A stretch of DNA of 38,518 bases from positions 1-38,518 of the IMG/VR virus record IMGVR_UViG_3300032516_000073, one strand, 5' to 3'. The stretch is from a virus. Numbering within the stretch: the first letter of the stretch is position 1; each line of letters starts with the position of its first letter. The position numbers and the translations under genes were made by a program. Positions 3,072 to 37,714 of the stretch are shown piece by piece. The notes below the pieces were generated by a model, which was not told the origin of the DNA, made no database searches, and saw only the letters and a list, made by a program, of their open reading frames with translations.

Positions 3072-3107
3072 CATTTATTATTGACGTCGGAGTGTCCGTC
3101 GAGAGAA

Positions 3108-12887: not shown

Positions 12888-13108
12888 ATCGTTGTCAACC
12901 CCACATAACAAACATTGCCTTCACTAGTGCGGACGTACAGCCTGACAGTCCCCGCGCCATCATCATATATTACAACCTTGCCCGACGGAACATCTTTATC
13001 TGTCGGCAGGGTCTTTGTAAACGCCGTGCCCAGCGACTGCGAATGCAGATGTTCCAGCGCCCGCTGGGTTTCGTTGTCTTTAGATTTGTAGACCTGGTCG
13101 ATGCTCAT
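12884..13108 (-). CDS. Hypothetical small beta-rich phage protein
   Basis: 74 residues starting MSIDQVYKSKDNETQRALEH, at an ATG overlapping the upstream stop (ATGA). The C-terminal half (GKVVIYDDGAGTVRLYVRTS) is beta-strand-like, as in small fibre or head-fibre capping domains. It sits between the tail hub block and the cupin gene. Probably structural; no specific family recognised. Confidence 0.72.
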   Translation of the reverse strand: MSIDQVYKSKDNETQRALEHLHSQSLGTAFTKTLPTDKDVPSGKVVIYDDGAGTVRLYVRTSEGNVCYVGLTTI

Positions 13109-13236
13109 TCGTTCATCGCCCTTCCGGCTTCCGCATAATAACGAGGATCCATAGACTGTGGAATATCCTCTATCTCTCTTTTAGCGTTGCTTCCTATGTC
13201 AACCATTGTGTTCATTTGAACAAAATGGTCTTTCAC
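13105..13236 (-). CDS. Possible 43-residue protein with GTG start
   Basis: The frame VKDHFVQMNTMVDIGSNAKR ... DPRYYAEAGRAMNE ends in an ATGA junction with the next gene. A GTG at 13236-13234 has GAAGGG six bases upstream; ATG codons at 13215 and 13206 are alternatives. The frame is open much further upstream (to 13419) through a repeat array but has no earlier start. The coupled junction and protein-like composition support translation. Function unknown, probably a minor structural protein. Confidence 0.5.
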   Translation of the reverse strand: MKDHFVQMNTMVDIGSNAKREIEDIPQSMDPRYYAEAGRAMNE

Positions 13237-13333
13237 CTCTTGCCCTTCAAGCGTGGGAGGTAGAAACCCAATATCTTTCTTTTCATTCTTAACATTCTTA
13301 TATTCTTGATTGTGTCCTTCTGCTGCCCTTCCG

Positions 13334-13483
13334 TTATCCTTCTGTTGTCCCTCTGTTGTCCCTCTGTTGTCCCTCTGTTGTCCTTCCGCTGTCCGCGCTT
13401 TGGTATTCTTTCCACTTAACTATTGTTATTAAACGATTTCTGTTAGTTTTGTGTTGTTCTATTTGAATCCATGTCGTCAGGGC
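13334..13483 (-). pseudogene. Remnant of a replisome-organizer winged-helix end and linker
   Basis: This frame has no start codon. It translates as TTWIQIEQHKTN, then RNRLITIVKWKEYQ, then SADSGRTTEGQQRDNRGTTEG and a stop. Phage DnaD-like initiators typically have an ITIVxWxxYQ strand at the end of their winged helix, followed by a repetitive TTEGQQKDN linker and an NKNVKNVKNEK tail. The same tail (YKNVKNEKK) is present here in the next frame. It looks like a fragment of a replication gene placed inside the tail operon, interrupted by the copy number of the 11-bp repeat. Confidence 0.55.
13341..13383 (-). repeat. Four tandem copies of an 11-bp repeat
   Basis: Four head-to-tail units of TCTGTTGTCCC (plus strand), the last lacking one base, with degenerate units on both sides. 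Since 11 is not divisible by three, each gain or loss changes which frames are joined. With one more copy, the upstream remnant frame (13334-13483) would continue into the frame ending at 13105 and give one protein of roughly 130 residues. With one copy fewer, a GTG at 13415 would join the same frame. Confidence 0.9.
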
Positions 13484-13493
13484 TTACGCTCAT
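13443..13493 (-). CDS. Possible 16-residue leader-like peptide
   Basis: An ATG overlapping the stop of the upstream 107-residue gene (ATGA) has GGAG eight bases before it and encodes MSVSPDDMDSNRTTQN before a stop. It may be the surviving start of a gene disrupted by the replication-gene fragment just downstream, or a chance ORF. No function can be assigned. Confidence 0.3.
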   Translation of the reverse strand: MSVSPDDMDSNRTTQN

Positions 13494-13813
13494 TGTGGCA
13501 ACTCCATCCAAGGCGGGGGAGACTGCTCCCCCTCTTGCGCATACGGCGAAAGACCTAAAATTTGACGAGACCGTTTATGCTTCATGGCTTTCTCCATAAT
13601 TCCAGGAGTAGGTTTTCCGCCACTCAAAAGATGCTTTACTTCTTCCTTCGTTAAAGTTGGAACTAACAACGGATAATCGTCCATCGTTAACTCTGTCGAA
13701 ACAGGAGAAGAATATCTCGGATCAACAGGCGCCCCCGTATACGGCAACGGACCAAAATATCCATTTCCCTTTGCAGATCCGTCCCCCCTTGTTCCGTACC
13801 ATGGCGTAATCAT
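13490..13813 (-). CDS. Conserved small phage protein of the tail/ejection block
   Basis: 107 residues from an ATG in an ATGA overlap with the hub gene. The pattern GNGYFGPLPY, then VSTELTMD, then YPLLVPTLTKEEVKHLL resembles a short phage protein family with a strongly conserved PLLVPTLT box, often found near internal virion proteins. Function unknown. The C-terminus is Pro-rich. I am confident it is a gene and less sure of its role. Confidence 0.75.
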   Translation of the reverse strand: MITPWYGTRGDGSAKGNGYFGPLPYTGAPVDPRYSSPVSTELTMDDYPLLVPTLTKEEVKHLLSGGKPTPGIMEKAMKHKRSRQILGLSPYAQEGEQSPPPWMELPQ

Positions 13814-16800
13814 ATCAACATCGGCTGCGGAGATAACAGCCCCTTAAACTCCTTGAGAGTTACCGTGTAAAGATCGTTCTTATAGAACCGTATCGCGACC
13901 GTTGAGCCCATAGCGTTCGAATGGAAGAACGACTGCCAGCGCTTCGGGTAAGTCGCGAGGTCGAACGTGAATGACCCCGTTGCGTTCTCGGTTGTCCACG
14001 TCACGGTCAACGATCCCTGCGTACCGGAATGCTCACTGATGATCTTCTTGAACAATTTGTCCAGCATGGGCTCGTCAAAGTTCAGGTTGCCAGTATCGTA
14101 AATGAACTCAACAGCGGTTTCCGCGACTGCGCCAGACCGGCGATAGCTGAACTTAAACAGGTATCCGTCGGACGTGTACAGCTTCGGGATCTGCGTGGTC
14201 GTATCCACGGCAACGAACTCGATCAGGTACTGGATCCAGACGTTCGCGGGGACCGTCATCTGGTCGCCGCTGAATTCCATAGCGTATCCCCATTCCTTAA
14301 CCACAACATCTGTTCCTGCGGTAGAGAAGTCAACAGGCGCACCACCGCTGGTTAACGACAGCTGGAACGTCCCCAGGGCTGACGTTACCACATAATAAAG
14401 CCTGGTGTTAACCAGCCCCGTTGGGAGGACTGTTGCCGAAACAGAAACAGTATCCCCGTCCGTTAGCCCATGCGCCGCTGCGGAAAACACATCTGTCCCC
14501 GCGTCAGCAGTTACAGATATCCCCGTCTCAACTAGCGCCTGTGTCGTGTTCGACCGGAAGTAGACCTTAACCTTATCGCCAGTAGCCTTGCTCACGTTCA
14601 TGTACATGATGCCAACGCTTTCGGCGTTGATCTGCGCAGCGGTTGATTCATAAAGCCCGTAATAATAATCCGTGAGTACCGCGGCGTTATACCCGCTCAT
14701 CTGCCCCAGGATCCGCTTGACCAATTTGAATGAATAATATGGCGGGTTTGGAAGATCGGAAGACGCAGCCGTTGCTTCTCCGGAATGAGAATGAGACACC
14801 AAAGAATGAGATAGGGATCCCTCCCCGGGATAACCATAGGTAGTTCCCGGATCAACAGTCGTTACATCTGAATCATGGGTATGTGCATATTCAGCCCTTG
14901 TTATAGTCGTCAGCGGAGAGTCTCCGGCAAGAAGATACTTTCCAGCAAAATCCGATGTCACATCTGTCCATCCGCTTCCGCCGATCGCGGCATCCGAATG
15001 GTAAAGACAAAAACAATACTTGTTTGCGCCATCCCATGAAGACTCTTCGCCAACCTTCTGAATAAGCCGGAAAGTGATAGCGTCAAGCAACCATTCGGAC
15101 GTGTCCGCAGACGCGACAGATCCATGTATCAAATGAGTATGGTTCGGCGGGATCGGATAGAACGATCCGTTGGTCTGACCAAGATCTATCTCGCACTGAT
15201 TTGTTCTAGGCATCCCGGAAGAAGTAACGCTGAAAGTATGCGAATGCGATGGGTTCTTGTCAGCAATAAGATCCGTTAAGGCGCTTACAAGATAACAACT
15301 ATCCAGATCTGACCTTGCCAGCCATCCATCCGGTTCGTCAGCCTGGTCCCACATAATGATCGATCCGACCGGAAACAAGTATTCCGTCGTTCCTGCGTTC
15401 TTATAAAAAACACGGACCCTGACATTTCTCGGAAGCGCCGCGTCTGAATATGCAGAGGAGCTCGCGGCTGTATGCGCGTGATTATTATTCAAGCTCTCGT
15501 TGTTCCACTCATCCCCTCCGCTTCCGCCCAGGGAAGCCGTAGACTGATCGAGCGTTACGCTGATCGTATGTGCGTGATCTTCAGTCCCGCCAGTCGTCCC
15601 AACCGCGGATGTCGATATATAAAAGAATTTTCCGTCCGCAGCAGTTATCTCTGTCCATCCCGGCCCCGGAGAAGTTTCTTCGTTCATCCAAAAAATGCAA
15701 ACGTTCTCTGGAATAGCCGTTGCCGCAACAGCCGTTCCGATCTCGATCGTTGGAGAAGATTCTGATCCGCCAACGAAGGTCGTATATTCCGTCCCGCGGT
15801 CCGCTTGAGTCTTTCCGGAAAGCCTGTGATAATTGTCGCCCTCTTCCGCCTTATAAAGCCATCCGCCAAGCGAGCTTCCGATATAAAGCTCACTTGCTTC
15901 ATCAACGCCAGAAGCAGAAGCAAAGCAGTTCGCGCTCGTCGTATCCAGCGAGAACTTATCCAGCAGATAATCGTAGCACATGATCCGGTTGTTCTCTTGC
16001 GGAGAAGACTCTTTATCTGCATACGCGGCGTAGAGGACTCCGGTATTGAAATAAGAAACAACATTATTATAAAGTGCCGGGAGAATGTTCCGGCAGTTGA
16101 ACTGCGGAAGGATCGCTTTCGGAATCCCGCCGTCACAGACATACCACTGATCCCAGCCCAAGAACACAACTCCGAACGGGGTCTCAACAACAGACCACGG
16201 GGCCGGTGTGCCGATCTGAGCGATTGGATCTTCAACGTACCATGATGTCGGGTCTGCGTTCGACAGAGCAGAAGATACCCCGATCTTTCTAATGTTGTTC
16301 TGCTTCAGGCACATCAACGTGCCCTGGAAGTTCTTTATTCCGGTGATCTTATCCCCGTCGTCTTTGGCGACTTGGATCAAGTCAAGATTTGTGGTCTGCT
16401 GGATAAGGTGAGGCAGAAACGGATTCGAGTAATAAATCTCACTCTCCGCATCAGGATTCCCGGAAACGAACAACCGCTCCCGGTGTATCAACAGCAGATT
16501 TCCTTTCGGCATATCATCGTTGACTGTTGGAACCTGAACGCCGCCTGAGGCGTCCGCGGTCGTGTCTTCATAAGTCGTTACGGTATTGTTGTTGAGCGTG
16601 ACGATCAGACGATACCCGGACGTTTCGCTGGACTTCCGGTAGATCTTTCGATCAGTCGTTCCGATCGGGCCAACGGGAATATGGCTAAGGCTGATGCTCT
16701 GGTTTGTGACTGACGCGATCGTGTTCGATATCGCACCGCAGACGTAAGACCCGGTCGGAGTCGTTATCTCGACCTCGTAAGATATCGCAGTCCGCGTGAT

Positions 16801-21357: not shown

Positions 21358-22038
21358 TCAGTAATTGTTCAATATTATCAGCCTTATCCGTTGGCTCAGA
21401 CCATTGGTTATCGACTTGACTATCCCTTCGTCATACCACGCCCCTGATTTATCCTTTAACTCCTGAACGATATGCTCAAAACTTAATGCCAATCTGTACG
21501 GGCGGGGCATCGCCATCGCATCAATCGAATCCGCTACCCTCAAGATTCTCGCTCCCAATGTAATTTCCTCGCCTTTAAGGTTGAGAGGGTATCCTGTTCC
21601 GTCAAGGTTCTCGTGGTGCTGTAATATGGTGTTACAAATCGTTGGCGATATCTTGAACTTCTCAGCCATAACTGCCCCTTTAAGAGGATGTAAACGAACC
21701 ATCTTCCACTCATCCTCAGTAAGTTTTCCATCTCGATGCAAAATCTCCTCGTCGATAAACAACTTGCCAATGTCATGCAGATGAGCAGAGGATAATACTT
21801 CCTTCCGTTCAGAGCCGCCAACCGCAAGATGTTCGCATACCGCAGAGCATATAAGAGCCACCCGACGGCTATGCCCATAGAAATAAGGAGATTTGATATT
21901 GAGCGTGTCATACATAGCCTCCAAGGCTAACTCCTGTGACGGAACAACCTTTCTCCACAACTTGAATATCAGCGTTGCGAAGATTGCCTTCACCATCAAA
22001 TCGAACGCCGTGTAGTAATCGCGTAGAGTATCCAACAT
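21358..22038 (-). CDS. HD-GYP domain cyclic-di-GMP phosphodiesterase
   Basis: 226 residues. After a possible membrane-associated or amphipathic N-terminus (residues 12-30), an HD-GYP domain fills most of the protein. It has GHSRRV (His56), HLHDIGKL (His88, Asp89, Lys92), RLHPLKG (His117), HHENLDGTGYP (residues 141-151) and ILRVADSIDAM (Asp170, Asp173). These match the metal-binding and GYP residues of enzymes that degrade cyclic-di-GMP, so activity is expected. It lies directly after a coiled-coil membrane protein (TAAATG junction), which might localise it. Lowering cyclic-di-GMP could change host motility, biofilm or exopolysaccharide. Confidence 0.9.
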   Translation of the reverse strand: MLDTLRDYYTAFDLMVKAIFATLIFKLWRKVVPSQELALEAMYDTLNIKSPYFYGHSRRVALICSAVCEHLAVGGSERKEVLSSAHLHDIGKLFIDEEILHRDGKLTEDEWKMVRLHPLKGAVMAEKFKISPTICNTILQHHENLDGTGYPLNLKGEEITLGARILRVADSIDAMAMPRPYRLALSFEHIVQELKDKSGAWYDEGIVKSITNGLSQRIRLIILNNY

Positions 22039-22526: not shown

Positions 22527-23945
22527 TTACATCCCAACAGATGCACAAGTAACTACTCCGCACGATGTAGTTCCAGTAATAACAGGGCATCTTCGACAAA
22601 CTGTTCCAGTTTTAAAATAAGAAAACGCAACAAACGAATAAATTGCCCCGTCTGTTCCTATCCGTATTCCATTGTTATAAATAATGCCATCAACCGCAAA
22701 GTTGCCCTTAACTGCCTGTTTTGCACTCGTACCCGCTGTTAATGTCGGATCTGGACTGCCGACTTGGAGTGTATAAATTGCAGAAGATGTCCCGATCCCA
22801 ACGTTGCCCATCATGTACACCGCGCCTTCGACGTCCAGCAACGCGCGGGCCACGCTCGTGCCGATCCCCACGTTCCCATGCCCGTAGATCGTACCGTTCA
22901 CATCCAGCTTCTGCGCCGGCGCGGTCGAGCCGATCCCGACGCTGCCGGCTAATGTTGAGTAAATGTTCGTACCGGAGGTCGTCCACTGGCTGTTGTTTGT
23001 CTGGTAGACCGTTGCGTCATATGAAGGAACTGTTCCTGCCATTCTGACAAGACCCGCGCCATTGAGCTGCGTCTGATAAACCGTGCTATCAGTCGATAAC
23101 AACCCTGCCGTTGACCTCACAAGACCAGTCCCGATCGTCCCGAAATATACCGAGCCTTCAACATCAAGTTTATGCTGTGGCGCAGATGAGCCAATGCCGA
23201 CGTTCCCGGCTCCAACAATATTAAGCTGGGCGCTCAATGTTGTTGCCCCGCCGAGATAAGTCGTGCCGTTAACATCAATAAGGGCTCTCGGTGCCGTCGT
23301 TCCAATCCCAACGTTGCCCATCATGTACACTACGCCTTCGACATCCAGCAACGCGCGGGCAACGCTTGTACCGATCCCCACGTTCCCATGCCCGTAGATC
23401 GTGCCGTTCACGTCCAGCGTCTGTGCCGGCGCGGTCGTTCCGATACCGACATTGCCACCAGAAGCTATTGTCATCCTGATTGGAATGTCCGCGCCTGTCG
23501 CGGCTCCAGATGGCTTTGTGGCGAAATACATATCTCCATAAGAGTTAGACCCAAGCCTCTTATGGATAATCGCCGCCCCGATGTTCGAGTTTGTCGAAGA
23601 TAACCCGAACCCTAACCCAACGGCCTGATTCGTATCGTCAGAGTTGTGTCGGAAAGTTGCCGTCAAGTTGGAGACATCCACATTTGTACCGGTGATTGCG
23701 TCGGCTGTATTTTGCACCGATAGCGACCACGCAGGGCTTGTTGTGCCTATTCCAACCTTATCCGTTGACGTTGTCAGCCAAACCGTTGACGTTCCGCGCG
23801 TCCACCCGGCTGTACCGTAGATCGAAGCGTCTGTTCTTCGCTCGTAATAGTCCTGTTTGCCCGTAAACGGATTTAGCGTCCAATCGGCAAAGGCAGGAAA
23901 ACTAAGTGCCAAGCTCGCGATAAGTGTAAGAAGTAACGTTCGATC
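22527..23945 (-). CDS. Exported fibre-like protein with VGIGT repeats
   Basis: 472 residues from the ATG at 23945 (GGGGAACGT upstream). The first 20 residues are a Sec signal peptide (MDRTLLLTLIASLALS, cleavage after PAFA), then DWTLNPFTGKQDYYERR. The body repeats NVGIGT-x-P-x-x-LDV-x-G units about ten times; this is typical of trimeric phage fibre shafts. Two blocks are near-identical at DNA level. The C-terminus has several cysteines (CRRCPV, TTSCGVVTC). A signal peptide is unusual for a virion fibre and suggests export to the host envelope, or an Omp-like surface role. Confidence 0.75.
   Translation of the reverse strand, partial: DRTLLLTLIASLALSFPAFADWTLNPFTGKQDYYERRTDASIYGTAGWTRGTSTVWLTTSTDKVGIGTTSPAWSLSVQNTADAITGTNVDVSNLTATFRHNSDDTNQAVGLGFGLSSTNSNIGAAIIHKRLGSNSYGDMYFATKPSGAATGADIPIRMTIASGGNVGIGTTAPAQTLDVNGTIYGHGNVGIGTSVARALLDVEGVVYMMGNVGIGTTAPRALIDVNGTTYLGGATTLSAQLNIVGAGNVGIGSSAPQHKLDVEGSVYFGTIGTGLVRSTAGLLSTDSTVYQTQLNGAGLVRMAGTVPSYDATVYQTNNSQWTTSGTNIYSTLAGSVGIGSTAPAQKLDVNGTIYGHGNVGIGTSVARALLDVEGAVYMMGNVGIGTSSAIYTLQVGSPDPTLTAGTSAKQAVKGNFAVDGIIYNNGIRIGTDGAIYSFVAFSYFKTGTVCRRCPVITGTTSCGVVTCASVGM
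22801..22941 (-). repeat. Long direct repeat in the fibre gene, copy 1
   Basis: About 140 bp that is nearly identical to 23311-23451. Both encode the VNGTIYGHGNVGIGTSVARA and LLDVEG-x-VYMMGN segments. The few differences are mostly silent, which points to a recent duplication or gene conversion within the fibre. Confidence 0.9.
23311..23451 (-). repeat. Long direct repeat in the fibre gene, copy 2
   Basis: Second copy of the roughly 140-bp repeat at 22801-22941. The copies are 510 bp apart and in the same frame, so recombination between them would shorten the fibre by 170 residues without breaking it. Confidence 0.9.
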
Positions 23946-24171
23946 CATACGTTCCCCAGATGAATTTAGGCGCATCAGTTGCAACCCCGGTGTCGGTATC
24001 AACCGGATACTTCATGGTCCAAGCTGTCGTTCCAGAGTACTCCATCTTGCAGATCTGCCACCCCGCCTTCCCCTCACCACACCCCTTAGCCGCCTTCCCG
24101 AACCACTGGCTTACGCCGTCTGTGTAGAAAGCATCCGTGGCGTTAGGTGTTGGCTCAAAGTAATTAGGCAT
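23902..24171 (-). CDS. Small phage protein of unknown function
   Basis: 89 residues: MPNYFEPTPNATDAFYTDGV, then GWQICKMEYSGTTAWTMKYP, then APKFIWGTYGS and a tyrosine-rich end. The WQI-K-x-EY...WTxKYP...FxW pattern is one I associate with short proteins next to phage fibre genes, probably a small beta barrel. The start overlaps the HiPIP-like gene by 8 bp and its end overlaps the fibre gene by 44 bp. No catalytic residues seen. Confidence 0.72.
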   Translation of the reverse strand: MPNYFEPTPNATDAFYTDGVSQWFGKAAKGCGEGKAGWQICKMEYSGTTAWTMKYPVDTDTGVATDAPKFIWGTYGSNVTSYTYRELGT

Positions 24172-24400
24172 TGCCCTGTGTCTTTCTGTACTCGCTCAGG
24201 AAGAACTCCCCGTCCTTGGCCTGTTCGGGCGGCCTAATCGCCCAGACGTTGCATACAGCATCTGGGGACACGTTTCCGGCAACAGTTTCACAGCTATTGG
24301 GGGGATAGAAGTGCATACACGTCTTGCACTTCTCGTGCTGGCGATAATTGACGTCTTCCTTGCTCTTGCCTGCCCCAGCTACTATTCCGCTTGTTGGCAT
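24164..24400 (-). CDS. HiPIP-like four-cysteine phage protein
   Basis: 78 residues. CKTCMHFYPPNSCETVAGNV followed by SPDAVCNVW gives four cysteines at 25, 28, 37 and 50 (CX2C, then X8 and X12). The order and the final C-x-W resemble high-potential iron-sulfur proteins and a small phage family with a V-x-G-x-SP-x-x-C motif. It may bind a 4Fe-4S cluster or zinc. There is no signal peptide, unlike periplasmic HiPIPs. It lies between the LamG gene and a fibre gene. The function in phages is unknown to me. Confidence 0.65.
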   Translation of the reverse strand: MPTSGIVAGAGKSKEDVNYRQHEKCKTCMHFYPPNSCETVAGNVSPDAVCNVWAIRPPEQAKDGEFFLSEYRKTQGNA

Positions 24401-24409
24401 AATCGCTCC

Positions 24410-26827
24410 TTATTGTAATGCCGTGTTTGCCGATGTCACCTCATCTGCTGTTAAAGTATGATCAAACACAACAAATGATTCTAAAAATATCGATTGTCCA
24501 TCATCAGGAAGGATATTAAATGTTGTTGAATCAGAAAAGTCTCCACCAGGCTGCCAGAAACCCTCTGAAGAACTTGTACTGTCAATCAATGTCCCGCTAC
24601 TATATGTATTGATATCATCAATATCAGTAGTACCTCCACCTCCCTTATAAAATGTTCCAATAAGTGTATAACTATTATATCTTGTGAATGCGTCAGAATT
24701 AAACGCTATATTAGGATCATAACCGCCCTGCCAATTAGCCCCTAGATTTGAATCACTCGCAAGCACAAGAAGAGTTCTTTTTAATCCCGTCGTGTACACT
24801 GTTTCCCCAGTGGAACGAATAGCGTATCTATTTAAACGCGTATATACAGACGCATCAACATCAAAATCCATTGAAAAAACCAAATGTCTAAGGTTTTCGA
24901 AGCTTCTTTCCTCAGGAAGAGAAATCGGTCTGTATTTTAGTGCAATCGATAAATTATGATTATAATATGTCCATGTTGGCCCGACTATTGTTCCATGATT
25001 ACCATATGTATCCTCAAGAAGACTCGTTAAAACCGTTGAACCACCTACAGGTTGGAAGTTATATTCAGCTGTTACGCCAGAGACGGGAGATAATTGTCCT
25101 TGAATAAATGTTCCCCCGCCATAAAGCGTATCAACTTCAGTCTGTGTGAGAGCCTTATCTCTAAACAACCTGACACGCTGAATAAATCCATCCATGGTCT
25201 TATCGAGTTGCGTCCTGTTCCCTAAATAAATATTCTGATCTCCGTCTAGGTTTCCTGTTCCATGCGTATGAGACTGCGCGGTTTTAAGAACACCATTTAT
25301 ATAAACCTTAATCAACTTATCAGCATCTTTGTTATATGTAACAACATATTGTTGTAACGGACCCCCAACAGCAATCGTCCCGGGATATAATGTTGTAACG
25401 GCGTTTGTTGAATCAGTCGATATAGTCGCGCTGAATGCAACTCCACTGCTAGTATTAAGAGTTATTCCAGTTGACCCCGCTCCGAATGAATCAAGAAAAT
25501 ACCCAAGACCTTCCCCATATCCCCTTCTTGCAGCCCACATTTCTATGGAATATGTTGTTGCACCCAATGTTGCATTTGCCGTTGCACTAGCTGGAATCTT
25601 AACATAGTCACTACCGTCTTCTGAAAATGAACTAGAGCTATTCCCATTAAACGAAAGCATCGGCGGACCGTAAGAATGCACCATATTGTTTCCACCAGAA
25701 AGATAAGTTAATGTCTCCTTGTTTCTGGTCACACTAGTACCGCTTGTTGGAATATAAGAAGTAGGAAACTTATCATTCGTAAATGTTGCTCCAAATGCGT
25801 ACACCTCATCTCCGGAATAAGGAAGTCGAATTATTGCTTTAGTCGGATTCGACCCATTATAAACGATTGTTCCGTCGAATCCAGATGACGGAGCGAAACT
25901 ATCCTGACCACTTCCTGTTGATGTGGCAGTATATGAATATGTTCCGTCACCCGTGATACCCGTTTTCGCTGATCCAGCCATATACGGAGTCAGTGTGCCA
26001 GTTGTCATGCCAGAAACAGTCACTGTTCTGGTGTACTCAACTCCCAATGTGAGCGGAGTGCGAACGACTAAAATACTTGTTGTGTTCCCAGCAACATGTG
26101 TCCAGCCATACCCACCGCTTTGAATCCAGTGACCTTGATCATACTGTGTATAAATTTCGTTATCAATGTTTGATGAGAAACATCTTACCCACGTATCTTC
26201 AGGCAATACGCAAGACGTATAAATACTAGTATCAGCAGAAAGATCAACTGTTCCACTCCCGGAAGATTTTTTGAGAAACAAAGAAAATGTTTTGCCATAA
26301 AGTGCGCCATCCGTATTGAATGTCAAATCAGCATTATCCGCTGTTGCCTGTAAAATGTTTGTTGTTTTGTCCCCAATAGGTGTGCTTACAGTTCCGCCTC
26401 CGATTGTGACATCAGTAGATACCCAGGCCGCATTTGTAAAATCATCAGAATACGTAATATAATTCGTAGAAGATCCTTCAAGCAATAACCCATTCGCCGC
26501 GTGAAATCCTGTCTCGTCATAATAGCCACCGACAAAACGCGGAGTGTCATCTGTTGCCACGGTGCTAATCGTTCCATCGGCATTGACAACAGTGGCTGGG
26601 TTTCCAGAAGAGCGGCTTGCTGTGAATGTTGCTTCTTTCGGGCCATCGGAATAAACAGCATCTGAAATTCCATCCCTGTAATCCGCGAAGAATGTAAGTC
26701 CGATTGGAGCAAGTAAATTAGCATAAGAATTATTTCTATGAATGTTGCTTTGTATTACGACTCCACCTGAAAATGCTGGAGACGCTAATACAAGAAACAT
26801 CAAAACCATAATAAGCCTCTTAATCAT
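24410..26827 (-). CDS. Exported LamG/lectin-like adhesin
   Basis: 805 residues from an ATG preceded by AAGGAGGAGTTT. Residues 1-20 are a Sec signal peptide (MIKRLIMVLMFLVLASPAFS). Residues about 90-395 contain phage fibre lectin-like units (LLLEGSSTNYITYSDDFTNA; FPTSYIPTSGTSVTRNKE). Residues about 395-585 form a LamG/concanavalin-like domain (YSIEMWAARRG, VYINGVLKTAQ, NIYLGNR, GFIQRVRLFRDKALTQTEVD). A second domain of similar style ends at the C-terminus (FVVFDHTLTADEV). It likely binds polysaccharide outside the cell. Its signal peptide is almost the same as that of the PEP-CTERM gene upstream. The gene is AT-richer than its neighbours. Confidence 0.8.
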   Translation of the reverse strand: MIKRLIMVLMFLVLASPAFSGGVVIQSNIHRNNSYANLLAPIGLTFFADYRDGISDAVYSDGPKEATFTASRSSGNPATVVNADGTISTVATDDTPRFVGGYYDETGFHAANGLLLEGSSTNYITYSDDFTNAAWVSTDVTIGGGTVSTPIGDKTTNILQATADNADLTFNTDGALYGKTFSLFLKKSSGSGTVDLSADTSIYTSCVLPEDTWVRCFSSNIDNEIYTQYDQGHWIQSGGYGWTHVAGNTTSILVVRTPLTLGVEYTRTVTVSGMTTGTLTPYMAGSAKTGITGDGTYSYTATSTGSGQDSFAPSSGFDGTIVYNGSNPTKAIIRLPYSGDEVYAFGATFTNDKFPTSYIPTSGTSVTRNKETLTYLSGGNNMVHSYGPPMLSFNGNSSSSFSEDGSDYVKIPASATANATLGATTYSIEMWAARRGYGEGLGYFLDSFGAGSTGITLNTSSGVAFSATISTDSTNAVTTLYPGTIAVGGPLQQYVVTYNKDADKLIKVYINGVLKTAQSHTHGTGNLDGDQNIYLGNRTQLDKTMDGFIQRVRLFRDKALTQTEVDTLYGGGTFIQGQLSPVSGVTAEYNFQPVGGSTVLTSLLEDTYGNHGTIVGPTWTYYNHNLSIALKYRPISLPEERSFENLRHLVFSMDFDVDASVYTRLNRYAIRSTGETVYTTGLKRTLLVLASDSNLGANWQGGYDPNIAFNSDAFTRYNSYTLIGTFYKGGGGTTDIDDINTYSSGTLIDSTSSSEGFWQPGGDFSDSTTFNILPDDGQSIFLESFVVFDHTLTADEVTSANTALQ

Positions 26828-26844
26828 AAACTCCTCCTTAGTAA

Positions 26845-26876
26845 TTATAAATCTCTTATGCTTATAAATCTCTTAT
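26845..26876 (-). repeat. 15-bp direct repeat between the PEP-CTERM and LamG genes
   Basis: Two exact copies of TTATAAATCTCTTAT (26845-26859 and 26862-26876) are separated by two bases. The right copy includes the PEP-CTERM stop codon. A TATAAT-like box lies in the downstream copy, but no good -35 is present. It could be a duplication scar from insertion of the AT-rich cassette. Confidence 0.85.
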
Positions 26877-27367
26877 ACTCTTTTACGACGAAGCCATGCG
26901 ACTAACGGCAACCCACCCAAACCATATAAAATAATACCCATTGGTTCTGGAGTAACAACAAAACTGACTTCTCTGCAATCAAGGAGATTCCGTCCATCTT
27001 TTAGAAAAGTATTGATTCTCCAATCTCCTAGTTTTTGATTATCTGTTAAAGTACCCCAGCTTGAGATAGCTAACCAACCCTGGACACTCGAAGAACTAAT
27101 AGAAGAGGTAACTAAATAACCTTCATTGGTCTTGTCGTACCATGTTGCAAGAACACTTGGCGTTGTAGTCGGCGCGGGTGTTACATGGAAATAAAGATAC
27201 GGAGTTTGATTTAACGCATAACTTACAACTGCCGGATTATTCTGTGAAGCTGTTGCGTTCCCAACATCTTCCGGACTAACCATTTTATAATAATCAAACT
27301 TCGTGACTGCAAACGCCGGAGACGCCAACACCAAAAACATTAAAACCATGAGAAGTTTCTTGATCAT
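26873..27367 (-). CDS. PEP-CTERM sorted exported protein
   Basis: 164 residues from the ATG at 27367 (AAAAGGAGGATTT upstream). Residues 1-19 are a Sec signal peptide (MIKKLLMVLMFLVLASPAFA). The mature part is beta-rich with one cysteine. The end is a textbook PEP-CTERM signal: VTPEPMGIILYGLGGLPLVA then WLRRKRV, that is a PEP motif, one transmembrane helix and a basic tail. In hosts with exosortase this tail is cut at PEP and the protein is passed to the cell surface or biofilm matrix. Finding it in a phage late operon implies that the host has that machinery. Confidence 0.85.
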   Translation of the reverse strand: MIKKLLMVLMFLVLASPAFAVTKFDYYKMVSPEDVGNATASQNNPAVVSYALNQTPYLYFHVTPAPTTTPSVLATWYDKTNEGYLVTSSISSSSVQGWLAISSWGTLTDNQKLGDWRINTFLKDGRNLLDCREVSFVVTPEPMGIILYGLGGLPLVAWLRRKRV

Positions 27368-27378
27368 AAATCCTCCTT

Positions 27379-28170
27379 TTATGTTCCTGAACAAGCGGTT
27401 GTTGAAGAACGGACTGTCCCGATATCATCAATGCACATATACCTTGTGCCAGTCGTCGATCTGAGACTATCAAAATATATTGCACCATCCACCTGAATTG
27501 TTCCTTGAATATAAACACCGGGGTCAACATAAACTTGACCAGCCTTTGGTGTTCCGCTTCCGATCGTAAGCCTCTGTTTTGGAACCGTGCTTCCGATCCC
27601 AACGTTTCCAGTGCTATAAATCGTCATATCAACAGTGCTCATCGTTCCAGACGATCCATATCCAATGTTAAGCCACTGAGTAGCAGTGTTGCTCTGTCCA
27701 TTTGCAGCCATCTCCATGTACCCATACCCATTCGCGTTGAATAGAAGCTGAGGAACGGCAGATAAAGAATTAAGAAGGACATATGTATCAATCTTCGCAA
27801 CTGCTTGAACATACAGATTAGAATCAATTTCAACGTTCCCCTTGAATAAAGCATCATAGGTTCCATTAATATAGGTTTTTGAACCACCGCCGACATCAAG
27901 CAGCGCTGTAGGCAAAGTTGTCCCAATACCAAAATTCCCTGCTGCCGATAGCTGAATTTTATTGGCATAAATCGTATCGTCTGAATAAATTCGACGCCAT
28001 GCTCTTGATGTTGTCCCAAGATCATAAGTTGTGCTCTTGGTCGGAGTAATGCTCGACCCAACGTTCTTTAGAAAGTCTCTGAAAGAATCCCACGGGGTCC
28101 ACGCCATGGCCTGCCCCACACATAAAACTGTCAGGACAAAGCCCGCCAATAATATTCTTAATGTTTTCAT
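27379..28170 (-). CDS. Exported fibre-like protein with VGIGT motifs
   Basis: 263 residues. A signal peptide (MKTLRILLAGFVLTVLCVGQ, cleavage after AMA) precedes WTPWDSFRDFLKNVGSS. The body has beta-solenoid fibre features: TTSRAWRRIYSDDTIYAN, NFGIGTTLPTALLDVGGG and NVGIGSTVPKQRLTIGSG. The C-terminus, YMCIDDIGTVRSSTTACSGT, has two cysteines. It resembles the 472-residue exported fibre at 22527-23945 in layout. Like that protein it should enter the Sec pathway, so it may act on the host surface rather than in the virion, or both. Confidence 0.75.
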   Translation of the reverse strand: MKTLRILLAGFVLTVLCVGQAMAWTPWDSFRDFLKNVGSSITPTKSTTYDLGTTSRAWRRIYSDDTIYANKIQLSAAGNFGIGTTLPTALLDVGGGSKTYINGTYDALFKGNVEIDSNLYVQAVAKIDTYVLLNSLSAVPQLLFNANGYGYMEMAANGQSNTATQWLNIGYGSSGTMSTVDMTIYSTGNVGIGSTVPKQRLTIGSGTPKAGQVYVDPGVYIQGTIQVDGAIYFDSLRSTTGTRYMCIDDIGTVRSSTTACSGT

Positions 28171-28200
28171 TGTTATTCTCCCTGTCCTGACAGTTTATTG

Positions 28201-28557
28201 TTATTCTTCAAAAACAAGCGTGATCGTAACAACACCAGCCCCGGCGTTATTCTCGACACACCGGAACCTGATAAACGGAGCGATAATAACAGACCAGGCA
28301 CGGTACGCCCCAGTGCTTGTACTCGAGCCTACAACCTCCCCAACCGAGGTTCCCGCGCTATCCGTTGGCGTATACCAGTTAATGTCATCAACAGAACACT
28401 GCTGGTATATTGTTAATGACGGGGCAACAGATGTGACTTTTACTTGAACAAGCGCAGCGCATTGTCCTCTAAAACTACGCTCAACCATAGCCTCAGTGTA
28501 TTGGGTTGACGCCTGGGTCATTGTGAGCGGAGCAAACTTATTCGTATGAATACTCAT
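28201..28557 (-). CDS. Hypothetical beta-rich structural protein
   Basis: 118 residues starting at the ATG in a TGATG overlap with the upstream stop; a GTG one codon earlier is an alternative. The sequence MSIHTNKFAPLTMTQASTQY, then LTIYQQCSVDDINWYTPTDS, then RFRCVENNAGAGVVTITLVF is a beta-sandwich-like pattern of the sort found in phage tail and decoration proteins that report sample-type values (means with variance). It is probably a particle component. No family name is certain. Confidence 0.72.
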   Translation of the reverse strand: MSIHTNKFAPLTMTQASTQYTEAMVERSFRGQCAALVQVKVTSVAPSLTIYQQCSVDDINWYTPTDSAGTSVGEVVGSSTSTGAYRAWSVIIAPFIRFRCVENNAGAGVVTITLVFEE

Positions 28558-28988
28558 CACTTATCCTTTCGTAACGACTCTATTGATTTTGGATCCCGCG
28601 GCCGGAGGATCCTCTGGATCGCCACATACCGCTGGATTCGTTTCTGGTTGATGTTGCCCCACTCCATGTGCTTCCGGACCGCTCCGGGGTTCCTGGCTGG
28701 ATGCCGCATCTCATCGCGCGTTGGCATCCCTTCCGCGATCTGTTCCTCGAGCTCGCGCTCTTCCTTCACCAGCTGGTCCTGCTCCGTTGCCTTCGGCTTT
28801 GGCGCCGTACCGTCCCCGATCACCGCATTGATCCTGGCGATCTCCCGCTTGATCTTGACTGTGTCAACCTGGGAGCCAGCGGTGCCGGCTCCAGCGCCGC
28901 CCTCGATCTCCTTAAGCGCTGACTCCAGCTCCTTCTTTTCCTCCTGGAGCGACTCCTGCTCCGACTGACTCAGGTACTGCTTCTTCAT
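28557..28988 (-). CDS. Coiled-coil hypothetical protein
   Basis: 143 residues from the ATG at 28988, chosen because GAGGAAAAGGGACG lies just upstream; ATGs at 29009 and 29042 are alternatives. It starts MKKQYLSQSEQESLQEEKKE, and two coiled coils flank a Gly/Ala linker. The C-terminal part (MRHPARNPGAVRKHMEWGNI followed by NQKRIQRYVAIQRILRP) is basic and contains a conserved-looking R-P-x-x-x-x-x-x-R-x-W segment. It overlaps the TMTC-like gene by 77 bp. Perhaps a scaffold or assembly factor; unknown. Confidence 0.7.
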   Translation of the reverse strand: MKKQYLSQSEQESLQEEKKELESALKEIEGGAGAGTAGSQVDTVKIKREIARINAVIGDGTAPKPKATEQDQLVKEERELEEQIAEGMPTRDEMRHPARNPGAVRKHMEWGNINQKRIQRYVAIQRILRPRDPKSIESLRKDK

Positions 28989-30444
28989 CGTCCCTTTTCC
29001 TCTGACCATGGCTCTTCCCGCTTTCCTGGGTCGTTGACCCATTTACAACAGGGGGGTGTGAAAGAGGCCGGCCAAGCGCACTCCCACCTGCTGGTTTATA
29101 CTTATCGAGAAGCCTCTTCTCGATGTTTGCCTTCTGTATCAACAAGCAGTCCATCGGTCTCCTGATGCCACCCAGGGGCTCAAGAATGATCATGGACTTG
29201 ATCGTTCTCTTGTAAGCTTCCTCCCACTGCCCGATCGTGGCAAAGAAAGCCGCTATATTCATCTGGCAGGCCCAGTCCTTATCGTCCATGCTCTCTGATC
29301 GGAAGACGTTCGTTGCGATCTCATTGACGGCTACGTTGCTTAAAGTCCCGCCAGTTGCCAGAACATACTGGGCGTAGTTATTATAGACCTGGGCATTCTC
29401 GGGATAGTTCCTAAGGTCGTTCACATAAAGATCGCCAATGGTCTTCCAGGCCGGTATGAATCGATGCGCACGGATCGCCAGATACGTCGCCACGATCGTT
29501 ATTAAGATCGGGTAAGGCTGCAACAGCTGACCAGCCACGATGCACAACCCTACGATCGGAAGGTAAAGATATCTCTGAGCATAAAACTGGCCCGTCATAT
29601 TCCACTGGGAATGGAGGGCTATAATTACGAAGAACCATAAGGCACCTACTGGGTTGACGATATAACAAAGAGCGAAAACAGACGAAACAAGCGCAAGAGA
29701 AGCCCAAAAGTCCTTATCAGCGCTGTGGTATTTTTTGTAGACTTCAGGCCGGTCCCGGAGGTTCTTGCCGACACCGCTGAAGAAGCCGATCTTCTCTGGC
29801 ACGATCGAGTCGTAAGTGTAGCGGGCAACGGTCTTAACCATAAGGAAAAGACGCCTGGGTGTCGGCCGGCAATCTACGAGCTTCTTATTCTCGTTGAAAG
29901 AATGACGGATCTTGATACCGGTCTTGAACCGCTTGCCGGTCAGAAAGGCCGCTAACGGCCAGAACATCGACAGCCCCCACGGCCACAGCACGAAACTGGC
30001 AAGAAAGGGAAAGGTGATCGGGCAAACCGTAGAGTTCAGCGCGGCCGCGAAGATCGGCATGGCCACGATCGCTCCGGCTATATTCGGGAACGTGTGCAGA
30101 ATAAAATACGCTATGAGGGTGAAGTACGCCGCTGTTGCGTAGTAATTCCCAGTGACCCAGGCTACGCCCCAGACACATTGCGGGTGTACCGCAAATATCA
30201 ATGCCGGCCCCCACCCCCATAGCATATAGATTATTGATACATTAACGCAGTGCATACCGATCATAAAGACGCGGTACATCCTGCTTGGACGTGTCTTGAA
30301 GAAGTCAGCAGCCGGAGGAGACTCCGGGACGTCATAGAGATAGCCGTCGCGCTTGACCGCATCATCAATAACGTATAAATACGCCTCAATGATCGTCCTC
30401 GCGTACAGCAATAATACCAATGCTATGATGCCGAGAAGTATCAT
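28912..30444 (-). CDS. TMTC-like multi-span membrane glycosyltransferase with TPR-like end
   Basis: 510 residues. The start is the ATG after CGGAGGCGTG. There are about nine to eleven predicted transmembrane helices. In the first loop, YLYVIDDAV (Asp27, Asp28) matches the acidic pair of GT-C glycosyltransferases. ALIFAVHPQCVWGVAWVTGN (residues 81-100) matches the FAVHP...VAW-x-x-GR block of TMTC/DUF1736 proteins. FYAQRYLYLPIVGLC matches their later ERYLYLP box. Residues about 370-460 look like TPR helices (VYNNYAQYVLATGG). Relatives transfer mannose from a lipid carrier to proteins. This one may glycosylate capsid or host-surface proteins. Confidence 0.8.
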   Translation of the reverse strand: MILLGIIALVLLLYARTIIEAYLYVIDDAVKRDGYLYDVPESPPAADFFKTRPSRMYRVFMIGMHCVNVSIIYMLWGWGPALIFAVHPQCVWGVAWVTGNYYATAAYFTLIAYFILHTFPNIAGAIVAMPIFAAALNSTVCPITFPFLASFVLWPWGLSMFWPLAAFLTGKRFKTGIKIRHSFNENKKLVDCRPTPRRLFLMVKTVARYTYDSIVPEKIGFFSGVGKNLRDRPEVYKKYHSADKDFWASLALVSSVFALCYIVNPVGALWFFVIIALHSQWNMTGQFYAQRYLYLPIVGLCIVAGQLLQPYPILITIVATYLAIRAHRFIPAWKTIGDLYVNDLRNYPENAQVYNNYAQYVLATGGTLSNVAVNEIATNVFRSESMDDKDWACQMNIAAFFATIGQWEEAYKRTIKSMIILEPLGGIRRPMDCLLIQKANIEKRLLDKYKPAGGSALGRPLSHPPVVNGSTTQESGKSHGQRKRDDEEAVPESVGAGVAPGGKEGAGVSA

Positions 30445-30457
30445 CACGCCTCCGGGA

Positions 30458-31031: not shown

Positions 31032-31928
31032 CTATGCCACCTCATGCCCGTACAAGAAACTCCAGTCCGAGAAGCCATAAGAATAACGAGTGTAGACACT
31101 CCACTTACTAAGGTAGGTGTCGAAATCCTTATCCTTATTGAACTCCGTCGGTGTGCGATCGAACCATTTCAGGTACATCTTCATCATGCGGCTATCGACC
31201 ATGAACCAGTTGTTCGAATCGGTCAGATAATCCCACACGACGATTTTGTACTTGCCCTTGTTGAAGTTGGGGTTGTTGTCAGCCGTGTCCATCTTGCCCG
31301 ACGCGTTGACAATTTCCCAAGCCGTTTCCTCAAGCTGCGGAGGAATGACCAGCATGTCCCCGCGAGCGATCGCGAGGTTGTCTGTCTCGTCAGTAAACTG
31401 GCGCATCAGAAGACGCGTAGCCTCAACTGCCGTCGCCGACAAGGCCGTGGTGCCCATGTTGCCGACGGTTGTGCTTGTTCCGACGAAGGTGTGTGCAGTC
31501 GCGCACAAAGCCAACCCATCGCCGCCTGTGAAGATCGAAGTCGAGAACGCACTGTTCCACACGCTGGAGGCATGTTTCTCCTGGGTGCGCTTTGTGACCA
31601 GCGCCAACTGCGCGGGCCGCTTGTTGATGACGCTGTACTGATCATCATCAACGATCTTCCGTTCGATCTTCATGCCCTTCACCCACTCTTTGTGGGTGTA
31701 CGACGTGCGGTACTGCTGCTTGAAGTCATCATACGGGACAGTCCCATCGAATTCCTGCAAGTCACCAGTTCCGCCAATACCGAGGTCGTATTCGGTTGCT
31801 TTATTCGATTTCTCAACTCCGAAAAGATTCAGACGCTGACCTTCAGGAAGGTCATATTCTGACATAAAAATTTTTCGGAGGCCAGGATCGAGTAAATAGC
31901 CGAAGCCCTCACTGGTTATAACGCCCAT
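31032..31928 (-). CDS. Major capsid protein, gpT-like
   Basis: 298 residues, MGVITSEGFGYLLDPGLRKI, from an ATG after GGGAGTTTTAA. The order of motifs fits Mu gpT-like HK97-fold capsid proteins: an E-loop-like region (FDGTVPYDDFKQQYRTSYTH), KRTQEKHASSVWNSAFS, ALCATAHTFVG, LVIPPQLEETAWEIVNASGK and a late WFMVDSRMMKMYLKWFD strand. Size is normal for the family. It follows a scaffold-like and a decoration-like gene, as in a standard head module. Confidence 0.85.
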   Translation of the reverse strand: MGVITSEGFGYLLDPGLRKIFMSEYDLPEGQRLNLFGVEKSNKATEYDLGIGGTGDLQEFDGTVPYDDFKQQYRTSYTHKEWVKGMKIERKIVDDDQYSVINKRPAQLALVTKRTQEKHASSVWNSAFSTSIFTGGDGLALCATAHTFVGTSTTVGNMGTTALSATAVEATRLLMRQFTDETDNLAIARGDMLVIPPQLEETAWEIVNASGKMDTADNNPNFNKGKYKIVVWDYLTDSNNWFMVDSRMMKMYLKWFDRTPTEFNKDKDFDTYLSKWSVYTRYSYGFSDWSFLYGHEVA

Positions 31929-34118: not shown

Positions 34119-35930
34119 TTACCCTCCCATTCCGGCCATCATCTCATCCGGGTTAGCCGGCGGTTGCCCGGCAATCTCCATTTTGATCTGTTCCGGCGAA
34201 GCGCCTTCCGCAAGTCGTTGCTGTACTTGCTGTTGCATCTCAGGCGTCATCGCCCCTGGCCCGGTCGTGACCGGCTGTTGGTCAACGATAAACTCGTCAA
34301 CGTCCTTGAATCCCATGAGTTCCGCGATCTTCCGGTTAATAGCTGACCGGTTAAAGGTCGGGTCTTGCTGGGAAACTTCCTTGAGCTTGAGCAGGTTCGT
34401 GATCTGGTACTCCTTATTCGCCACCTCAGACAGGCCGGTCGGAATGAACTTGACCTTCGCCTTAAGGATCTCGGGCGATACCTGGACCGGGATCGGCGGC
34501 TTGCCCTTAGGATAGGCCGTGATCCACTCAGGAAGCGCCATGAACTGCGCCAGGTTCTGAAGATACATCTGCGCCAGCTTACCGATAAAATCATTCTCCA
34601 TCTTCTTGAGGATCGGCCTAAATCGCATCCCAGCCGCGCCCTGGAGGAGATTGATCCCGGAAGCCGTGCGGTGCTGGCCGCCATCGGTCGGCATTAAGGG
34701 GACCGTTGCGCCCGTTGACTCACGATAGTCTGCCTTTGCGATCTGCTCTTCCTGGTAGGAGGATGCGGTGACATCCGGCGTATCCATCCATCTGACAGAC
34801 GTTACGGTGTCCGACACCATTCGCCATACGCCCGGCTTCGACACCTGTAGCTTCTTGGTGTTGATCAGCGGGTCGTTGCCGTTATAGAACCCCTGCTTGT
34901 TGAGGACCAGGTCAACGTTATCAAGCCGCTGGTTGACGATCTTGTTCAGGCGCTCCTGGGATGGTTTACCGACCTGGCCGGTACCGATACCAAACCACGA
35001 CGGGCTGATGTCCTCATACAGCTTGATCTTAATAAATGGGGGCTCCTGGTGGTTGTAGGGGTTGTTGATCGAACGGATAACAACCTTCCTGTTAATAACC
35101 ATTATCCAGTACGGGACTGCCAGATCAGTTTTCGTTGAACCATCATCGTTCTTTATCGTTTCGTCCCAAGGCCCCCAATATTCCAATATCTCGTAATTCT
35201 CTTTTGGCTTGGTAAGAGTGTTCCCGGATCCTGTTACGAACTTCGTATCTGTCGTGACCGGGCATTCTGACTTGATCGCCGCGGATAGATTAGCGAACTT
35301 GAACTGCGGCATCTTTGAAAGGCGCTTTAAATACTGCTGGTCGCAAAACCTCCGGCGGATCATCGGCAAGCCGTCGTCAACTTCAAGCTTGGCCGGATGC
35401 GGGAGGATCTCGAAGAACCCGACAGGTTCGCAATCCGGCCGGTTTGACGTTACGGCCATGTACCGCTTACCGTTACGGTCAACCATCCAGTTCGTCCTGT
35501 AAACCCACGGAGCGTATAAATACCCGGTCCCGAGGAGAGTAGCCTGTGAGATCGGGAGAACTGCCTTCCCCTGCACATCCGACAAGCGGAAGTGATGCCT
35601 TATGAGGTCACGAACGAGTACGCCCTCAGCTTCAGTCGTGTCGCCAAAGACTGCCATTTCAACCGGAGACTCAGAGGGAAACAGCGCGGAGTGGATGCGA
35701 GGGGAGATCGTTTGCTCGGCTTCGAACGTCATCGGGACATGGACATTGTTCTGCCAGTCTTCGTCCCTTTTGATGTTCTTATTCAGCCAGTGATCGTAAA
35801 TCTTTTCTGCAATATCGAAACGTTCTTTACATGCCTGTTCGTATCTTTCGGCTTCTCCGACGACAAAATCAACTATCTTGCGGTCATCCTCACTTTGTGG
35901 AGGAATAGAGCCCGAGGTATCGGCTGCCAT
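34119..35930 (-). CDS. Portal protein
   Basis: 603 residues from an ATG after AGGGGATAAGTT. The N-terminal helices (KERFDIAEKIYDHWLNKNIK) lead to the clip and wing region. SPSWFGIGTGQVGKPSQERL, then NKIVNQRLDNVDL is a classic portal pattern, and the C-terminal helical barrel includes RTASGINLLQGAAGMRFRPI. The size and order between terminase and scaffold fit podovirus portals. It forms the dodecameric DNA channel at one head vertex. The C-terminal tail is Gln/Pro-rich. Confidence 0.9.
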   Translation of the reverse strand: MAADTSGSIPPQSEDDRKIVDFVVGEAERYEQACKERFDIAEKIYDHWLNKNIKRDEDWQNNVHVPMTFEAEQTISPRIHSALFPSESPVEMAVFGDTTEAEGVLVRDLIRHHFRLSDVQGKAVLPISQATLLGTGYLYAPWVYRTNWMVDRNGKRYMAVTSNRPDCEPVGFFEILPHPAKLEVDDGLPMIRRRFCDQQYLKRLSKMPQFKFANLSAAIKSECPVTTDTKFVTGSGNTLTKPKENYEILEYWGPWDETIKNDDGSTKTDLAVPYWIMVINRKVVIRSINNPYNHQEPPFIKIKLYEDISPSWFGIGTGQVGKPSQERLNKIVNQRLDNVDLVLNKQGFYNGNDPLINTKKLQVSKPGVWRMVSDTVTSVRWMDTPDVTASSYQEEQIAKADYRESTGATVPLMPTDGGQHRTASGINLLQGAAGMRFRPILKKMENDFIGKLAQMYLQNLAQFMALPEWITAYPKGKPPIPVQVSPEILKAKVKFIPTGLSEVANKEYQITNLLKLKEVSQQDPTFNRSAINRKIAELMGFKDVDEFIVDQQPVTTGPGAMTPEMQQQVQQRLAEGASPEQIKMEIAGQPPANPDEMMAGMGG

Positions 35931-36090: not shown

Positions 36091-36195
36091 CTATCCTCCA
36101 GCTGACGGTATAACAGAAGTCTTTGTTAATGCAACAATATATTTGGAATTCTTTTGGGGAAAGTCAAAACCGTCCGCCTTTACCGCGTTCCTCAA
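36091..36195 (-). CDS. Possible 34-residue protein overlapping the terminase gene end
   Basis: The +1 frame of the terminase tail continues past its stop for about 25 codons: GFDFPQKNSKYIVALTKTSV then IPSAGG. The only start candidate is a TTG at 36195, without a clear ribosome binding site. The composition is protein-like, so either a small TTG-started gene or a terminase frameshift product is possible. Chance is also possible. Confidence 0.35.
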   Translation of the reverse strand: MRNAVKADGFDFPQKNSKYIVALTKTSVIPSAGG

Positions 36196-37714
36196 CGAGG
36201 TCGTGGTATCGGTCGGTCTCAACAACAACAGCGCGTTTTGCGTAATCGCCTTCGTACTTCACTGTTGTTGTTGGCGCGTCATCATCTGGCGCCATGTAGC
36301 GGGGGCCGTAATTGTAGATGTACCGGAGGGCGTCCATGAAGTGATCGAACTTCTTTTTAACCTCTTCCTTCAGGTTATATTCTTCTTTGTTTCGCCTGTA
36401 CTCGTCCCAGGAGTAATGCTGGAACTCCCAGATCGTTTGCGTACAGGTACGAAAGACTCGAAGTGACGGGACGTTGCGCTTGAGAACGTGAGAGTAGCGA
36501 GGGGTGAGCGCTTGCCGGATCTTAGACTTCCCCAGTAAAGTGTCTGAGTTCCCTTTTTGACAGAAGACTCCATGGCGCATCAACTCCTTCCTGAAATTGA
36601 ATCCGCCTGACAGTTGATTATCTTTATCGGCGTGAGGATCGATCAATCTAATAACCGGCCTCGTCCCGGACATATCGCCTTCCTGGGCGTGGATCGCGAG
36701 CGCGATCTGCTCAACGTCCATCTCGGAAAGCCATAGCTCATCGTAGATGTAATGGTTCTCTTTCTCGTCGACGGCGAGCCATAATACGGCGGTCGGAGTC
36801 CGTTCGTGCGGATCGATCGCCATATACCTCGTCCAATTCTTCGGGATCTGGAACGGATTAATAATGTGCTGGTCCGGCTCGAACTCTTTATACACTAATC
36901 CGGAAAGGTGCAGAAACTTTCCGTGGAGGCGAGCAGACTTTTCCTCCTCGGTGAGTTTAGACTCGAATTCCTTAATTGCGCTTTCATCAAGATGAGTGTT
37001 CTCTCGGATGTCGCAAGTGACAATGAAGATGGATTTCCCGTCGGCCTTTGTGTAAATGTCGTCGTAGATCCAGGGCTGGGTGAGCGGAGTGAGGGTAAGC
37101 CAGTGCCGTCCGTGGAAGTCGACGAGCCCGCGCTGGGTCGCAACGTAACGATCCCGCGGAGGCGGCTCATCAAACCACGCAATGTGCCCTTTCCATCCTT
37201 CGAATTGGTTAATGTCTTGTTCATGTGTAAGCAAATCAAACTGCGATCCGTCCTTTAAAACATACTTAACTGGTATGCCCATGTTATTTCTGATCTTCTT
37301 CGAGACGATGGCGGGGTCTAGCCATTCATCGAGGAACGGAATTATGACCTCTCCCACCCCTTTCTGGAAATCCGTCGCTATGATGCGGCCTTTCACAGGA
37401 CCGCTTAATCGGAGTTCCTCTGGATACCAGTCAGGATACGTCTTTGTGAGATCCATGCAGAACTGGATCCCGCCTACTGTCGTCTTTCCAGACCTGTTTC
37501 CTCCAAAGATCGCCTTGCATGTTGCGTCCGCAACAAGGAATTGCATCTGCTTTGGCATCGGCTTGAAGGTCAAAAGCTTCTTTGACATCTTGAGAGTGAC
37601 CTCTTCCTTCAGAAGCGCAAGATATTCCTCTTGCTCCTCCCTGGTCAATTTAGCAAAAGCAGCCTCGTCAAGCCTCGGAGCTTGCCGCAAGAGCCGTAAG
37701 TCGCTTGTATTCAT
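36164..37714 (-). CDS. terL: Terminase large subunit
   Basis: 516 residues. The ATPase has a Walker A motif GGNRSGKT (residues 71-78) and Walker B HIAWFDEPPP (Asp182, Glu183). The RNase H-like nuclease has RYMAIDPHERTP (Asp301), a later RLIDPHADKD and a C-terminal FDHFMDALRYIY. Size and motif order match phage TerL, the packaging motor that cuts concatemers and pumps DNA through the portal. The start overlaps the small-subunit gene by 47 bp, with AGGAACTCGTGC as ribosome binding site. Confidence 0.95.
   Translation of the reverse strand: MNTSDLRLLRQAPRLDEAAFAKLTREEQEEYLALLKEEVTLKMSKKLLTFKPMPKQMQFLVADATCKAIFGGNRSGKTTVGGIQFCMDLTKTYPDWYPEELRLSGPVKGRIIATDFQKGVGEVIIPFLDEWLDPAIVSKKIRNNMGIPVKYVLKDGSQFDLLTHEQDINQFEGWKGHIAWFDEPPPRDRYVATQRGLVDFHGRHWLTLTPLTQPWIYDDIYTKADGKSIFIVTCDIRENTHLDESAIKEFESKLTEEEKSARLHGKFLHLSGLVYKEFEPDQHIINPFQIPKNWTRYMAIDPHERTPTAVLWLAVDEKENHYIYDELWLSEMDVEQIALAIHAQEGDMSGTRPVIRLIDPHADKDNQLSGGFNFRKELMRHGVFCQKGNSDTLLGKSKIRQALTPRYSHVLKRNVPSLRVFRTCTQTIWEFQHYSWDEYRRNKEEYNLKEEVKKKFDHFMDALRYIYNYGPRYMAPDDDAPTTTVKYEGDYAKRAVVVETDRYHDLVEERGKGGRF

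Follow-up and report, generated by a model that had tools for sequence, protein, structure and literature searches.

A gene of a 38.5-kb tailed-phage record in IMG/VR (this whole stretch, 38,518 nucleotides long, is called the window below) encodes a small protein that begins with a Sec signal peptide and ends with a tail that is probably of PEP-CTERM form, although borderline and divergent. The interpretation that we prefer, and to which we give a probability of roughly 0.55, is that the protein is phage cargo: it would be secreted, carry a divergent PEP-CTERM-type sorting signal, have been acquired as part of a cassette and be processed by the exosortase of the host, altering the surface of the infected cell. 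That phage genomes encode PEP-CTERM tails is a genuine pattern, undescribed as far as we found, of which the protein considered here is a divergent and weaker example.

The protein and its C-terminal tail

The PEP-CTERM tag puts proteins on the surface of many Gram-negative bacteria, and such proteins are usually present in multiple instances per genome; one tail of this type was found in the window, a count that covers the phage contig. The PEP-CTERM/exosortase (EpsH) family is characterized by a signal peptide, the PEP motif, one helix, a basic end and a mature part without homologues (PMC1569441). The phage gene reads from an ATG at 27367 to a stop at 26873 in the orientation of the late genes, with a good Shine-Dalgarno sequence, AGGAGGATTTATG, ahead of the ATG. 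Read directly, the N-terminus is a Sec leader of textbook form, MIKKLLMVLMFLVLASPAFA, whose A-x-A site is followed by V, and the C-terminus, VTPEPMGIILYGLGGLPLVAWLRRKRV, is made up of VTPEP, a single hydrophobic helix and a basic RRKRV. The leader, the PEP motif, the one transmembrane helix and the RRKR tail named in the first-pass annotation are thus all present. A hydropathy script found no helix between leader and tail, and the mature region is predicted, with low confidence (pLDDT 49, single-sequence AlphaFold model), to consist mostly of beta strands; this model, like that of a 511-aa membrane protein of the same window (pLDDT 37), is too poor for fold searches. No relatives of the protein were found in viral_contigs, genome_contigs or the INPHARED phages. 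It therefore matches the PEP-CTERM/exosortase (EpsH) system (TIGR02595 and PF09721) in signal peptide, PEP, helix and basic end, as well as in having neither an internal helix nor homologues of its mature part. It differs in being phage-borne, in scoring below the whole-protein cut-off and in its core sequence, given below.

The whole protein matched TIGR02595 as the sole NCBIfam model, with 13.5 bits (E 0.1, 18,950 models), whereas the curated cut-off is 16 bits; it is therefore not filed as a certified member of that family. Positions 1-23 of the 24 in the profile align to residues 139-163, exactly at the C-terminus. Taken by themselves, the last 51 residues reach 17.0 bits (E 0.0079) and are also matched, weakly, by a second PEP-CTERM model. 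Replacement of PEP by AAA or shuffling of the tail abolishes the TIGR02595 match, and none of six natural decoys with C-terminal helices, taken from the window and its relatives, matched a PEP-CTERM model. The family's succession of Pro-Glu-Pro, one helix and a C-terminal basic cluster is found as TPEP-MGIILYGLGGLPLVAWL-RRKRV; where the common PEP-CTERM core reads VPEPATLLLLGxGL, the phage protein has TPEPMGIILYGLGGLP.

An HMM built from viral VPEP tails gave just 5.3 bits against the protein, though end to end. This score is reached by 9 of 20,000 shuffles of the full tail and by 1,961 of 20,000 in which only the helix was shuffled while PEP and the basic end were left unchanged, so the model mostly sees PEP and hydrophobicity. 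Nine proteins recovered from other viral contigs by the pattern scan described below scored 23.6-29.6 bits with TIGR02595 and matched many PEP-CTERM models; since canonical phage-contig tails behave in this manner, the tail studied here is regarded as divergent. In general, the profile check that the first-pass annotation had proposed yields an end-to-end, PEP-dependent match but a whole-protein score below the cut-off: the observation is confirmed and its PEP-CTERM interpretation is partly supported.

A foreign cassette in a tailed phage

The window is assigned to Caudoviricetes by its terminase, portal and major capsid genes (Table 1), and no exosortase was found in the contig. A Mollicutes host was considered and rejected: the sole match of the major capsid in genome_contigs is a 4.6-kb contig, 40% identical and binned as Mollicutes, which is too distant and probably misbinned.

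Table 1. Features of the window discussed in the text
Feature	Position	Strand	Basis
164-aa secreted protein gene with PEP-CTERM-like tail	26873..27367	(-)	ORF and translation; TIGR02595 profile
Sec signal peptide MIKKLLMVLMFLVLASPAFA	27308..27367	(-)	sequence reading
Mature region, ~118 aa, without detected relatives	26954..27307	(-)	sequence searches; single-sequence model
Tail TPEPMGIILYGLGGLPLVAWLRRKRV: PEP motif, helix, basic end	26876..26953	(-)	TIGR02595 positions 1-23/24
805-aa signal-peptide protein, phage head spike fibre and LamG domains	24410..26827	(-)	NF048003 50.3 bits; PF13385 53.7 bits; GC3 0.304
263-aa signal-peptide protein, weak tail-fibre matches	27379..28170	(-)	phrog_18345, phrog_9942; GC3 0.383
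Low-GC island, ~41% vs 50-57% nearby, holding the three cassette genes	24250..28250	.	composition profile, per-gene GC3
Major capsid	31032-31928		phrog_371
Portal	34119-35930		phrog_332/1216
Terminase large subunit	36164-37714		phrog_2

The gene lies in the middle of a three-gene cassette that is compositionally foreign, having a GC3 of 0.30-0.38 against 0.43-0.74 in the other genes. All three genes begin with signal peptides, and the 805-aa neighbour, for which no relatives were found in viral_contigs, has the same leader as the PEP-CTERM-like protein. The leader DNA of the latter and of the next gene is identical at 47 of 60 nucleotides and then at 23 of 72, a pattern as after duplication of the leader. 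Host contamination or a chimera was rejected, since both flanking cassette genes lie on the same strand and carry phage fibre matches; together with the other signal-peptide proteins, some of them fibre-like, that related phages have near the same place, this argues for an exchangeable surface-module region. A short direct repeat, ATAAATCTCTTAT, occurs twice at 26846-26880, across the stop codon of the PEP-CTERM-like gene and the spacer before the next gene, and is possibly a footprint of leader or cassette rearrangement. Fibre-like proteins that start with a Sec signal peptide are a repeated feature of this phage group: they occupy 22527-28170 (-) of the window, and the same kind was seen at L031:16414-17778, L044:9950-10939 and 13000-14832, and L057:11493-12398.

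The tail itself is rare in this lineage. Relatives were gathered by a major-capsid search, which returned 80 viral loci at 35-84% identity; the same tail is absent from all of them, and equally from eight relatives with long records, which means that the lineage does not conserve it, and the survey of related phages suggested in the first-pass annotation turned out negative. Among 9,760 stop-terminated frames from the related phages and the window, a rule combining PEP, helix and basic tail selects one, the protein under study. A rule combining signal peptide, C-terminal helix and basic tail selects two of 1,347 called ORFs, the second of which encodes 63 aa and lacks PEP. A second instance of the TPEP subtype was sought in viral_contigs with two DNA patterns, each of which gave one false match (L157 and L158) and nothing else.

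Several other genes of the window deserve mention. An HD-GYP-like protein is encoded at 21358-22038 (-) (PF13487 HD_5, E 1.8e-34; motifs HDIGK and HHENLDGTGYP); judging by these motifs it is likely a candidate c-di-GMP phosphodiesterase that could affect matrix production by the host, and at a guess it would fit interference with matrix regulation alongside the PEP-CTERM-like protein. The 511-aa polytopic membrane protein mentioned above (28912-30447, (-)) has a TPR-like C-terminal part, and its copy in the window matched no Pfam model; it is 52-53% identical to proteins at L008:9959-11461, L013:10667-12169 and L031:11221-12714, and presumably resembles TMTC-type glycosyltransferase proteins (FAVHPQCVWGVAWVTG). 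A 158-nt direct repeat (89%) at 22789-22946 and 23299-23456 lies inside the gene of a 491-aa NVGIGTT-repeat protein. The 2,474-aa ORF at 3108-10532 (-) is probably an internal virion protein, with a stretch, VAFIGSRTFAD...SGGARGAD, that we take to be like a SLOG/DUF2493 nucleotide-binding domain.

PEP-CTERM tails in other viral contigs

A scan of viral_contigs (IMG/VR) with one narrow DNA pattern, VPEP[AS]T..LLGxG, returned 75 loci, of which 74 contain, in total, 76 proteins whose C-terminus is no more than 40 residues from the motif. At least one false match is present among the loci (L091). A crude rule assigns a signal peptide to 64 of the 76 proteins, which fall into many families, the largest with 23 members. 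A phrog_2 terminase was detected in 21 of 50 tested records bearing such tails, and an exosortase in one of the 50.

Because IMG/VR includes prophages and some host flanks, the contexts of individual loci were checked. L114 has its PEP-CTERM tail at 1685, and on the same strand follow a terminase (4533-5855), 3 kb from the PEP-CTERM gene, and a portal (6595-8820). The PEP-CTERM gene of L105 (2472-3137) is separated from a portal by 3.2 kb, in which a phage-type DNA methyltransferase is encoded. Two successive PEP-CTERM genes adjoin thymidylate synthase in L103, whose record has a terminase; they lie at 1101-1733 and 1730-2434 with a four-base overlap, and one of them encodes a choice-of-anchor C protein (TIGR04362). 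Contig L104 likewise has two PEP-CTERM genes, with tails at 3091 and 4749.

The families represented by L086/L114, L105/L084, L096, L103 and L153 are like the protein of the window in combining a signal peptide with a C-terminal PEP-CTERM tail in phage contigs without exosortase; unlike it, they have strong canonical tails, belong to unrelated phages and show no sequence similarity to it. For four viral PEP-CTERM proteins, a search of 50,697 phage records (isolate phages) yielded no relative, and no paper describing phage PEP-CTERM proteins was found in the open-access literature. The proposal of the first-pass annotation that a phage protein bears a PEP-CTERM signal is strengthened by the location of the gene among the late genes of a tailed-phage contig and by the strong PEP-CTERM proteins of other phage genomes, but the signal is borderline in this instance. 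The strategy, presented there as unusual, is less so than claimed, because PEP-CTERM-type tails recur in viral contigs.

Proposed sorting route, alternatives and meaning

We infer exosortase processing, a surface location and a surface function for the protein. It would have been acquired together with the three-gene signal-peptide cassette and be exported by the host Sec machinery during infection. The C-terminal helix would then hold it in the inner membrane so that PEP faces the periplasm, and the host exosortase would cut at or near PEP and pass the protein to the envelope or the extracellular matrix. The established PEP-CTERM model is behind the proposed export, anchoring and exosortase cleavage (PMC1569441). 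As the phage has no exosortase in the window, the host enzyme would be needed. The protein would most likely alter the surface of the infected cell, for example by remodelling the receptors displayed there and so blocking adsorption of competing phages (superinfection); an effect on the matrix is an alternative.

The helix and the basic end would alone suffice to anchor a protein, and the TIGR02595 score below cut-off and the weak score against the viral PEP-CTERM model also suit an ordinary C-terminal membrane anchor with an incidental PEP. Such a bitopic inner-membrane protein would be exposed to the periplasm, where it might, for instance, act in exclusion by blocking injection, and would require no exosortase. 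We consider this unlikely, though to be taken seriously: PEP is exactly at the expected position, the profile match depends on it, and a signal peptide together with a helix at the extreme C-terminus is very rare in related phages. A mere chance resemblance, a spurious PEP before a hydrophobic C-terminus picked out of many stretches read, appears very improbable. The score is borderline, the instance is single and presumably many stretches of DNA were read; against this, the profile statistics give a chance of about 5e-6 for TIGR02595 alone and about 2e-4 over the ~43 ORFs of the window (our own arithmetic), and the protein unites a signal peptide with PEP, a helix and a basic end.

It is also conceivable that the three signal-peptide genes encode virion fibre or spike proteins exported for assembly or decoy display, one of which is anchored at the envelope by the tail. 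The leader-bearing neighbours do match head-spike-fibre, LamG and tail-fibre models, and in related phages fibre-like genes with signal peptides are found at about the same position. However, the protein itself gave no fibre match in profile searches, and periplasmic assembly of tailed phages is not established; we regard this explanation as rather improbable.

Under the preferred reading, a cassette-borne protein processed by the host exosortase, there are parallels among known phages. T5 Llp and phi80/N15 Cor are phage surface lipoproteins for superinfection exclusion. They are small exported phage proteins put in the host envelope, as the protein described here would be; they use lipoprotein sorting, whereas it would use exosortase. 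More tentatively, and at somewhat short of even odds, many unrelated phages may display proteins on infected cells via the host exosortase, with the window carrying a divergent member of this set. If so, exosortase display would be a further envelope-sorting route beside lipoproteins, outer-membrane barrels and inner-membrane exclusion proteins, and would make use of a sorting system that is linked with exopolysaccharide and the formation of flocs, in environmental bacteria with little-studied phages. Superinfection exclusion or virocell aggregation, dependent on exosortase, would then be functions open to testing, and a phage with a PEP-CTERM tail would be expected to infect a host that has an exosortase.
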